Shown: positions 7,131 through 58,733 of the stretch, in pieces
Position numbering within the stretch: the first letter of the stretch is position 1
Layout of the letters: each line of letters begins with the position of its first letter
Source: Ectothiorhodospiraceae bacterium WFHF3C12
Lineage (GTDB): Bacteria > Pseudomonadota > Gammaproteobacteria > Nitrococcales > Nitrococcaceae
Length of the DNA: 64,000 nt
Assembly: GCA_013519935.1 (NCBI GenBank)
Contig: JACDUA010000006.1
Coordinates: forward strand, 31,097 to 95,096
Direction: 5' to 3'
Notes under the pieces: generated by a model
Told to the model about the DNA's origin: nothing
The model's input: the letters and a program-made list of their open reading frames with translations, nothing else
Database searches by the model: none
Translations under genes and position numbers: made by a program

Positions 7131-7510
7131 AGCCGCAGATGAACGCAGATAAACGCGGATGGTCGCGGATCACTCGGATTGAAGCGTCGCGGTGCAGTCG
7201 ACTGGCTGGAGTACGGCCGTAGGGGCGTTGGGACGGCGGAATACGCTTCGCTATTCCACCTGACGGGCAGTGCGGGCCCCCCGTGGGAGCGGCGACCCCG
7301 CCGCGAACGGCCTGCCCGTCGCCGGCGAGCCGTCGTAGGAGCGGCCCATGGCCGCGAACTACCCCTGCACGCCGCCCCGACGCCCTGTAGGAGCGCCGCA
7401 AGGCGCGATCACTAGGGGGTCTACCGGAGTCGATCGCGCCTTGCGACGCTCCTACCAGCCCATGGGCATGACCGACGAATAATCAGCGTTTATCCGCGTT
7501 CATTTGCGGC
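7131..7510. repeat. Arm-flanked repeat element between convergent lnt and manC
   Basis: agccgcagatgaacgcagataaacgcggat (from 7131) and inverted atcagcgtttatccgcgttcatttgcggc (to 7510); REPs inside, including doublet 7387-7455. Confidence 0.85.
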
Positions 7511-16932: not shown

Positions 16933-17301
16933 ATGATGGCGAACACCGACAGTGCGGAGTACGTGGGCGAGCTGGTCATGGAAGCCCTGGATGACCTCAG
17001 GGCGGTCAATCCCGTGGTGCTGGATGTGCGCGGCAGGACATCCATTACGGACCTCATGGTCGTCGCCACGGGTACGTCCAACCGGCACGTGAAGTCACTG
17101 GCCGACCGGGTCATCGAGAAGGCCAAGGAGGCGGGCATCAAGCCGCTGGGTGTGGAAGGCGCCGATGGAGCCGAGTGGATCCTGGTGGACCTCGGCGACG
17201 TGGTGGTCCATGTCATGTCCGAGCAGACCCGGGACCTGTACCGCCTGGAGAATATCTGGGCCATGGACGACGAGGACGCCGGGCAGGGGCATGGCGGGTG
17301 A
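16933..17301 (+). CDS. rsfS: Ribosomal silencing factor RsfS
   Basis: DLMVVATGTSNRHVKSLAD, WILVDLGDVVVHVM. Confidence 0.95.
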   Translation: MMANTDSAEYVGELVMEALDDLRAVNPVVLDVRGRTSITDLMVVATGTSNRHVKSLADRVIEKAKEAGIKPLGVEGADGAEWILVDLGDVVVHVMSEQTRDLYRLENIWAMDDEDAGQGHGG

Positions 17302-17313
17302 ACCCCCTTATTC

Positions 17314-17804
17314 AGCCGCAGATGAACACGGATGGAGACAGATTCTGTGAGGAATAGAGGCGGGGATGCCGTTCCGACACCAGGTCGTCATCCGTGGAGT
17401 CGCCCAAAACCCTGTGGGAGGCGCGTCCTCGCGGCGATAGGCAGGCTACCGGTTCGCGGCCAGGGGCCGCTCCTACGGGGTGTGTCCACGGCACCTGTAG
17501 GAGCGGCGCGAGCCGCGATCGCGGTTCGGTCGGCGCCCCGGTGATCGCGCCTTGCGGCGCTCCTACAGGTGCCGCGACCGGGATTCGCGTCAATGCGCGT
17601 TCATTCGCGGCGAACGCATTTCGCCGGAGCGTAGGTCGGATGGGCTCGCCATCCGACAGTCCGGGAGCAATCGCCCCGAGGACGGGGCTCCCACAACTGC
17701 GCTGAGGGCCCCTCGGCTTCCGGCCGGTTGTGGGGCGCCGTACACGCCGCGGTTCCTCGGGCATCCGTGTTCATCGGTGTTCATCGGTGTTCATCTGTGG
17801 CTAA
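17314..17804. repeat. Arm-flanked repeat element between rsfS and rlmH
   Basis: cagccgcagatgaacacggat (17313) and inverted catccgtgttcatcggtgttcatcggtgttcatctgtggctaa (17762-17804); doublet 17496-17567 and other REPs inside; extra arm-like copy at 17580-17611. Confidence 0.85.
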
Positions 17805-27893: not shown

Positions 27894-27941
27894 GGTATGG
27901 CTCGCGCCCGGCAGAGCACCACCGAGGGAGGACCGAGATCA

Positions 27942-28280
27942 ATGAAGATGAAAGACCTGTTGGAGACCTGGGAAAGCTCCGCCGGCGAGCGCCGGACGCC
28001 GCAGGCCTACGCGGTGCAGTTGCCGATTCACGACGCGGCGAAGCTCGCGGCGCTGTCGGAGATGTATCCCGGCCGGTCCGAACAGGACATCATCACGGAC
28101 CTGCTTTCCACTGCCCTCGACGAGATCGAGGCAGCCTTCCCCTACGTGCAGGGCCACCGGGTCGTCGCCGAGGATGAGCACGGCGACCCCATCTACGAGG
28201 ACGCCGGCCTGACCCCGCGCTTCCAGTCCCTCACCCGCAAGCACCTGCAGAGGCTCGAGGAACAGCTGGGCGAAGAGTAA
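27942..28280 (+). CDS. Small acidic conserved hypothetical protein downstream of pmbA
   Basis: MKMKDLLETWESSAGERRTPQAYAVQLPIHDAAKLAALSEMYPGRSEQDIITDLLSTALDEIEAAFPYVQG...; start ATG 27942. Confidence 0.75.
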   Translation: MKMKDLLETWESSAGERRTPQAYAVQLPIHDAAKLAALSEMYPGRSEQDIITDLLSTALDEIEAAFPYVQGHRVVAEDEHGDPIYEDAGLTPRFQSLTRKHLQRLEEQLGEE

Positions 28281-28290
28281 CTATCCGTTT

Positions 28291-28503
28291 AGCCACAGAT
28301 GAACACGGATAAACACAGATAATCGTTCGCTGCAATACCGCGATGGTCCCGCGGCAGGCGTTCGGGCTTTCGGGAGACGGGGTCAACCGCCAGCTTGACG
28401 AAGCTTTGCCTGTTCAAGCTTGAGTAATGGCCCGTACCCGGCACGGGTTTAGTTGGGCCAACCCCGCTACGATCCGTGTTTATCCGTGTTCATCTGTGGC
28501 TGG
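28291..28503. repeat. Inverted arm pair between convergent small CDS and mgtE, no REP inside
   Basis: agccacagatgaacacggataaacacagataa (28291-28322) and inverted gatccgtgtttatccgtgttcatctgtggct (28471-28501). Confidence 0.88.
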
Positions 28504-53903: not shown

Positions 53904-53907
<4 letters not shown>

Positions 53908-54165
53908 CCACAGATGGACACGGATTGTTTGTGGTAACGGCTGCGTGCGCCCGGCGTCGGGGACTCGCGGTGAGGACGCCGCTCCTACATCGCTTCATCA
54001 GCCTTCTGTTGGTCATTAGGGAGTGGGATGGGGGCGCTGCCTCCTGGGGCCGCAGGGATCGCTGGCCGGTTGGAAAGAGGCCCCGCGGCGTTGAGCAGTC
54101 AGATCGGGTGCGTTGAACACGGCGACGTCGAGCATCCGTGTCCATCTGTGTTCATCTGTGGCTAA
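53904..54165. repeat. Inverted arm pair between convergent macrodomain gene and gmhA/diaA gene
   Basis: ttagccacagatggacacggatt (53904-53926) and inverted gcatccgtgtccatctgtgttcatctgtggctaa (54132-54165); one degenerate REP inside. Confidence 0.86.
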
Positions 54166-58146: not shown

Positions 58147-58502
58147 GGAAGTCGGCCGGACAGTCGCTGTGCGCGAAGCGCATGGAGGAAAGTCCGGGCT
58201 CCACAGGGCAGGGTGCCAGGTAACGCCTGGGGGGCGCGAGCCCACGGAAAGTGCCACAGAAAACATACCGCCGATGGCCCGTCACCGGCGGGCACAGGTA
58301 AGGGTGAAAAGGTGCGGTAAGAGCGCACCGCGCGGGTGGCAACATGCCGCGGCACGGTAAACCCCACCCGGAGCAAGACCAAATAGGGGAGCAATGGCGT
58401 GGCCCGCGCTGCTCCCGGGTAGGTCGCTGGAGGTGCACGGTGACGTGCATCCTAGAGGAATGACTGTCCTCGACAGAACCCGGCTTACAGGCTGGCTTCC
58501 CC
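58147..58502 (+). ncRNA. rnpB: RNase P RNA, bacterial class A (M1 RNA)
   Basis: ggaggaaagtccgggctcc, cagggtgccaggtaacgcctgg, ggtaagagcgcaccgcg, gtaaaccccacccggagcaagaccaaataggg, cgacagaacccggcttacaggctggcttcc; P1 pairing of the ends. Confidence 0.95.
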
Positions 58503-58733
58503 TGATATACCCGCCGCGCGGCCGGCCGGTCCGGCCCGTGGTCCTTTCCTCTGTCGCCTTTAGCCTTCACCGAACCGAGAGCGACGGCGTATCCCTGCGC
58601 CTTTTCCTTAACTTCATCCCTTAACGCGGTGATTTGAGAGAGAAATCACGGCGGCCTTCAGCGTCGCCCCTCGGCGACACGAAGTGTGCCGCTTAAGTTC
58701 TTGTTGTGCCTGCAAGAATCCCGTCCGATTAAC

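Follow-up and report, generated by a model that had tools for sequence, protein, structure and literature searches.

Rpn/PD-(D/E)XK transposases (PDDEXK_2) are PD-(D/E)XK nucleases that are thought to promote recombination, and the STRR of cyanobacteria are dispersed short tandem heptamer repeats with an obscure role. REPINs are short inverted doublets of REP sequences that occupy extragenic sites and go with a distinct mobilising gene (PMC3116915). The intervening sequence (IVS) of Coxiella has three GACAGAT heptamers (two or three, depending on the strain), ends in a 28-bp stem, is excised by RNase III, and has an ORF for an S23/four-helix-bundle protein (PMC4990558).

The array considered here lies in a 64-kb window, the whole stretch of DNA that was analysed, from a bacterial genome of 4.6 Mb in 168 contigs (G000). 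It proved to be one end of a small inverted-repeat element, of which many gene-less copies and a single gene-bearing one are present in this genome.

Arms and pairs in the window and the genome

On the minus strand of 17763-17804, four GAT units follow one another at exact 10-bp spacing (TTA GCC ACAGAT GAACACCGAT GAACACCGAT GAACACGGAT), as a sequence-only reading had proposed for 17762-17804; the decamers that it had read in the arms at 7138 and 28298 are also there, in arms that start at 7132 and 28289. The array is the right arm of an element, E2 (17315-17804), which has the following surroundings and parts:

16933-17298: rsfS, matching PF02410 (RsfS)
17315-17343, plus strand: left arm of E2, GCCGCAGATGAACACGGATGGAGACAGAT, 13 bp past the rsfS stop codon (17299-17301)
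17344-17762, no strand: interior of E2, gene-free, with GTAGGAG/GTGGGAG-type REPs and other short palindromes
17583-17611, minus strand: degenerate inner arm of the right type within E2, identified by sequence, GCCGCGAATGAACGCGCATTGACGCGAAT
17763-17804, minus strand: right arm of E2 (the array under study), four 10-bp units, TTAGCCACAGAT GAACACCGAT GAACACCGAT GAACACGGAT, 9 bp upstream of the rlmH start codon
17814-18278: rlmH, matching PF02590 (SPOUT_MTase)

The inner arm is probably an older or nested end. The interior of E2 resembles other interiors solely through its REPs and short palindromes. Since rsfS and rlmH are commonly neighbouring genes, their co-expression may be altered by the element between them.

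Besides E2, there are three further arm pairs in the window, at 7132-7510 (E1), 28289-28500 (E3) and 53904-54165 (E4):

7132-7170, plus strand: left arm of E1, four GAT units, about 10 bp past the lnt stop codon
7482-7510, minus strand: right arm of E1, about 9 bp from the stop codon of a convergent manC-like gene
28289-28320, plus strand: left arm of E3 including TTA, three units, directly past the stop codon of the gene at 27897-28280
28472-28500, minus strand: right arm of E3, three units, 97% complementary to the left arm and 12 bp from the end of a convergent mgtE-like gene
53904-53925, plus strand: left arm of E4, two units, providing the TAG stop codon (53905-53907) of a macro-domain gene
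54134-54165, minus strand: right arm of E4 including TAA, three units, 9 bp from the end of a convergent SIS-domain gene

Rfam covariance models found no match at the arms in the window, and a known RNA family was rejected on this basis. Their sole match is the bacterial RNase P class A RNA at 58148-58503 (RF00010, 333 bits).

Genome-wide, the strict motif CRCNGATNNACRCNGATNNACRCNGAT has 56+61 exact matches and its reversed control pattern has none. A profile was made from about 100 arms in 0.86 Mb of the genome, on contigs chosen for having motif matches. It consists of TTA followed by GCC and by three CRCNGAT 7-mers spaced by 10 bp (consensus TTA GCC[A/G]C[A/G]GAT G[A/G]AC[A/G]C[G/A]GAT NNAC[A/G]CNGAT), and its conservation ends sharply at -3 and +28, with information near zero beyond these limits. 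The 10-bp phase is conserved, as shown by a lag-10 self-identity of 0.74 in 100 arms versus 0.27 in the adjacent 29 nt. The variation in unit number that had been proposed from the sequence is real (two, three or four units) but minor: among 97 arms, 82 have three units, 7 have two and 6 have four, and the four-unit arm at 17763-17804 belongs to a minority class. Long head-to-tail runs of the 10-bp unit, at G000:C7:6846-6902 (about six units) and in another genome at G047:C1:232589-232695 (about 11 units), reveal that it can expand in tandem. At a further locus (L084:4996-5260), an entire arm-loop-arm hairpin is present in three tandem copies, with a period of about 86 bp, joined by CAAGAGAGATCTCTTG-like palindromes.

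For 87 of 100 arms in this genome, the nearest neighbour is an inward-facing partner, and the pairs span 123-558 bp; in other genomes, many pairs form simple hairpins whose loops measure 5-30 bp. At variable positions, identity is 0.851 between the arms of one element and 0.838 when arms are shuffled between elements, and this small excess falls at the positions that define the GCCAC and GCCGC subfamilies. Where partners differ in the transcripts of codirectional loci, there are 52 A-C oppositions versus 35 G-U. The letters of an arm are held to the shared motif and not to the partner. Since there is neither a partner-specific likeness nor a preference for G-U, RNA pairing alone does not explain the arms, and a sequence-specific binder is favoured over an RNA stem. 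Indeed, the earlier suggestion that an arm is more than one side of an RNA stem, and resembles a recognition array, agrees with these figures; the candidate binder would be the GxxExxY protein described below. Partner covariation and a G-U bias, through which pairing constraints alone might have accounted for the arms, are both absent.

The interiors of the gene-less pairs have no homology to each other, except for GTAGGAG/GTGGGAG REPs, nor to the GxxExxY gene, and a full-length MITE was rejected because of these non-homologous interiors. No remnant of the gene was found in 44 interiors by a search that detects recent remnants (71-90 bits) and misses those in advanced decay (at most about 2 bits); an old decay of the gene is possible. 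Captured genomic DNA was rejected as the source of the interiors, which have few matches elsewhere in the 0.86 Mb, REPs aside. Nor was the target-site duplication of a DDE-transposon MITE found, as no direct repeat of length 2-10 exceeded expectation at 42 pairs.

REP heads are about 5-7 times denser in the interiors (for example, at 7171-7481 and 17344-17762 of the window), as though REPs tended to land in the loops: GTAGGAGCG and GTGGGAG occur there at 3.96 each per kb, versus 0.55 and 0.82 in intergenic DNA overall. Two of the six Y1_Tnp (RAYT-like) genes of this genome, L170 and L171 (G000:C167 and C140), are surrounded by such GTAGGAG/GTGGGAG REPs, and the genome also has an ordinary, separate RAYT/REP system.

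Nearly all arms in this genome occur in inward-facing pairs directly past stop codons. The 42 pairs lie between codirectional genes (25) or convergent genes (17) and never between divergent ones, whereas the 420 intergenic regions of at least 60 bp comprise 255 codirectional, 70 convergent and 95 divergent regions (p = 7e-5 for the divergent deficit); the gene calls came from a simple and rough codon-usage caller, which misplaced the macro-domain gene, and single placements are unreliable. The median gap is 12 bp from an arm to the 3' end of a gene and 47 bp to a 5' end. At several loci, the arm provides the stop codon, as it does for the macro-domain gene ending at 53907.

The GxxExxY gene and its arms

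A scan of about 85,000 species genomes detected at least 116 loci, in at least a dozen phyla including archaea, that have a three-unit arm like those of this genome and a similar A/T-rich outer flank. Clustering of the ORFs around the scanned arms singled out one small family near them, GxxExxY. Exactly one GxxExxY gene is present in this genome (TIGR04256, E = 5e-41), bracketed by TTAGCCACATATGAACGCAGATGAACACGGAT and an inverted TTAGCCACAGATGAACACGGATAAACACAGAT, with its ATG inside the left arm, so that left arm, gene and right arm make up an element of about 440 bp. The gene-less elements, with inverted arms of three tandem CRCNGAT units, match this resident element.

At 50 of 57 GxxExxY genes, from many phyla, an inverted pair of tandem arms exceeds the 99th percentile of shuffles, versus 6 of 107 offset intervals. 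Conversely, 34 of 40 genomes picked by the GAT arm motif alone encode GxxExxY (TIGR04256); these 40 belong to many phyla, including cyanobacteria, Acidobacteria, Planctomycetes, Verrucomicrobia and Chloroflexi, and most of the six without a detected gene are incomplete MAGs. Among 299 genomes of the window's phylum, the gene is present in 23 of the 29 that bear arms versus 35 of the 270 that do not (23/6/35/235, p = 1e-13), and within the richest family in 22 of 28 versus 23 of 46 (p = 0.026). Arms are carried by one of 23 genomes of this bacterium's own family. None of 50,697 phage records contained GxxExxY, and with two genes in IMG/VR (both also with arms) and seven in plasmids, a mainly phage or plasmid trait was rejected.

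The arms at GxxExxY genes are made of CRCNGAT units (mostly 10 bp), CRCNRAG units (8-9 bp) and, in a few cases, CAGGAT and CACGAAT types. Spacing by one helical turn is not supported as a rule of design: the period is 8-9 bp in related GxxExxY elements and 7 bp in the four-helix-bundle elements (below), and an essential helical turn would need a constant period. The 10-bp period is, from the comparison of sequences, a subfamily trait. The array had also been called iteron-like. In the sense of replication, where iterons form a cluster of direct repeats at an origin beside a rep gene, this finds no support, as the arms are dispersed, inward-facing pairs, the ends of small elements between ordinary chromosomal genes, and not a replication origin.

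In a tree of 50 GxxExxY proteins, elements with GAT/AAT arms and those with RAG arms split on one branch (support 100/99), with a single change of arm type versus 13 in shuffles, none of 500 shuffles being as good; for five of the 50 proteins, the arm label was left as "other" by the script and was given after visual inspection of the arms, ahead of tree building. Both arm types occur within one host family, so descent of the hosts is not the cause of the split. Arm and gene are physically linked, and their co-segregation therefore reflects common descent as one unit and is not evidence of recognition, although recognition of the arm by the protein would be a natural reason for their co-inheritance. 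A stronger hint of recognition may come from the gene-less arms. Seven genomes from different lineages were compared: pairing the gene-less arms of each with its own parent element gives the best of 5040 pairings, and the own parent ranks first in six of the seven.

A single orthologous site was compared in 20 related genomes of one genus, other than that of this bacterium. G047 and G039 have the intact element; in G070, G182 and G206 the arms remain around a decaying gene, and G182 and G206 have an added gene-less pair; only remnants, partly with nested RAG-type arms, are left in G062, G146, G154 and G228; and the element is absent from G134, G066, G031 and G043, where the "empty" sites differ from occupied ones beyond the element and give no clean single-insertion junction. 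This site shows gain or loss, nesting and the survival of arms past the loss of the gene. At the locus in G062 (L227), the left arm is of the RAG type and the right arm of the GAT type, with a gene remnant between them, two arm families having been nested or recombined.

The GxxExxY protein encoded at L175:1462-1848 matches TIGR04256 with 142 bits (cut-off 35) and PF13366, PDDEXK_3, with 140.7 bits (cut-off 22). Its invariant columns G27, E30, Y33, D69, E79, K81 and Q93 correspond to the GxxExxY, D, ExK and Q motifs, and these conserved residues fit an active PD-(D/E)XK nuclease, the activity being a prediction. Its structure model (pLDDT 93.8, pTM 0.87) has as nearest solved folds Cas4 SSO0001 (4ic1), alkaline exonuclease, lambda exonuclease, AddB and MGME1, at a moderate TM of about 0.5-0.6; no solved structure related to it by sequence was found. 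On this modelled fold, GxxExxY is a compact, Cas4/RecB-like PD-(D/E)XK protein of about 125 residues. A literature search on GxxExxY and PF13366 found no functional study, and one with the arm sequences found no relevant paper and no name for the repeat.

Readings of the arms

The array at 17763-17804 probably forms the end of an element without a gene, derived from a GxxExxY element, and is recognised by the GxxExxY nuclease. According to this proposal, a small selfish element would have given rise to a non-autonomous one, of which the array would be a terminal arm. The nuclease would recognise the triple unit at both ends, either as double-stranded DNA or as an extruded hairpin, and would cut or process the DNA at the arms so that the element is moved or copied, with gene-less pairs mobilised in trans. 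The interiors would then drift, gather REPs and lose homology while the ends remain recognisable. Elements would persist mainly directly past stop codons, where they may do little harm and may even provide the stop. In favour of this reading are the arrangement of arms around the gene and its recurrence in many phyla, the co-segregation of arm type with the GxxExxY clade, the likeness of gene-less arms to their resident parent, the intact, decaying and absent states at one orthologous site, the conserved active-site residues with the nuclease-like fold, and the placement near 3' gene ends. Points against it are that the interiors in this genome are non-homologous, unlike those of recent copy-and-paste MITEs, that the 42 pairs show no target-site duplication, that a GxxExxY gene was not detected in six of the 40 arm-bearing genomes, and that the orthologous site gave no clean junction.

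Another explanation is that GxxExxY is cargo or an accessory (for example, a homing-like or retention nuclease) and that the arms are moved by another, possibly host, enzyme acting on long inverted repeats. The non-homologous interiors and the lack of a target-site duplication are compatible with this, as are the facts that PD-(D/E)XK nucleases usually cleave DNA without joining it, and that unrelated four-helix-bundle genes are found in elements of a like general plan. However, each gene family has its own unit and period (7 bp with TIGR02436, 8-10 bp with GxxExxY) and the arm type tracks the GxxExxY clade, a specificity that a common enzyme would not need, which makes this explanation unlikely. 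The arms might instead act as RNA, a pair in the 3' UTR forming a long stem that is cut by RNase III and that affects mRNA processing or makes the insertions harmless. Elements do lie directly past stop codons and never between divergent genes, and the Coxiella IVS, with its S23/four-helix-bundle ORF and tandem heptamers, forms at its ends a 28-bp stem that RNase III cuts (PMC4990558). A role as RNA is nevertheless decidedly improbable, given that partners show no specific compensation (35 G-U versus 52 A-C), that a repeated CRCNGAT unit would not follow from pairing alone and that no Rfam family matches.

The conservation of the arms around unrelated interiors, together with their strongly biased placement, could also be due to domesticated binding sites of the host, a nucleoid or regulatory array selected at about 100 3' ends. 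Arms are, however, present in just one of the 23 genomes of the family, so they are no host function common to it, and the arms of each genome match its own parent element; such domestication is very hard to reconcile with these results. It is harder still to believe that a RAYT (Y1) transposase moves the arms as REPINs. The plan is a like one, with short inverted doublets at extragenic sites and a distinct mobilising gene (PMC3116915), and the genome has six Y1_Tnp genes, but none of these has an arm within 1.5 kb, two being flanked by GTAGGAG REPs instead, and single arms are non-palindromic and without a GTAG head.

The reading of the array as the end of a gene-less GxxExxY element has a broader form, to which we give about even chances: GxxExxY elements would form a class of miniature mobile elements, so far undescribed and spread across phyla. 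A single Cas4/RecB-like nuclease of some 125 residues would recognise the phased triple repeats at the ends and mobilise its own element as well as large families of gene-less ones, and the heptamer elements of the four-helix-bundle (IVS) type would be a second class with a like plan. The dispersed DNA repeat and the orphan nuclease family seem to belong together as halves of a single system. A very common intergenic repeat, with no name in the literature searched and present in many bacterial phyla and some archaea, would thus gain an origin and a candidate partner protein, and the orphan family a testable role with defined substrates. General traits (tandem units, an inverted pair, a gene between) can now be told apart from the 10-bp period that is specific to this genome.

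Comparison with known systems

Like REPINs and their RAYTs, the GxxExxY elements are extragenic, short inverted doublets with many gene-less copies and few gene-bearing parents, and the copies match the ends of the resident gene. They differ in that each end consists of three tandem 7-mers spaced by 8-10 bp and not of an imperfect GTAG palindrome, and in that the gene encodes a PD-(D/E)XK nuclease and not a Y1 HUH enzyme. With the MITEs of DDE transposons they have in common gene-less inverted-repeat elements that are related to gene-bearing parents in their own genome; the differences are that no DDE transposase and no target-site duplication were seen here, that the interiors are not shared and that the ends are tandem arrays. 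The Rpn/PDDEXK_2 proteins resemble GxxExxY in being PD-(D/E)XK nucleases but differ in Pfam family (PF13366 here), and we know of no comparable arm system for them.

Genes for four-helix-bundle proteins (TIGR02436; L274-L303) have inverted tandem arms in 22 of 26 cases, with a period of exactly 7 bp in 40 of the 40 arms scored. By general description, these heptamer arms look like the STRR of cyanobacteria, which differ from GxxExxY arms in their 7-bp unit and in their link to this other gene family. The TIGR02436 genes flanked by heptamers would, from their sequences, be a parallel class of element, and two unrelated kinds of small-gene element seem to share a plan, inverted ends made of short tandem units, with a different unit in each kind. 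TIGR02436 had no match in the genome of the window, in a search whose controls gave no signal, and the same model matched in 23 of 25 other genomes. Identity with a 23S rRNA IVS was rejected, as the elements lie between protein genes in a genome with no TIGR02436 match. The IVSs of 23S rRNA differ from the GxxExxY-linked elements in protein fold, in the length of their units (7 bp versus 8-10 bp) and in their position, within rRNA as opposed to past protein genes. They are alike in being elements of 400-500 bp in which a terminal inverted-repeat stem surrounds one small ORF and tandem short units lie near the ends, an arrangement that suggests a plan in common with these long-known intervening sequences.
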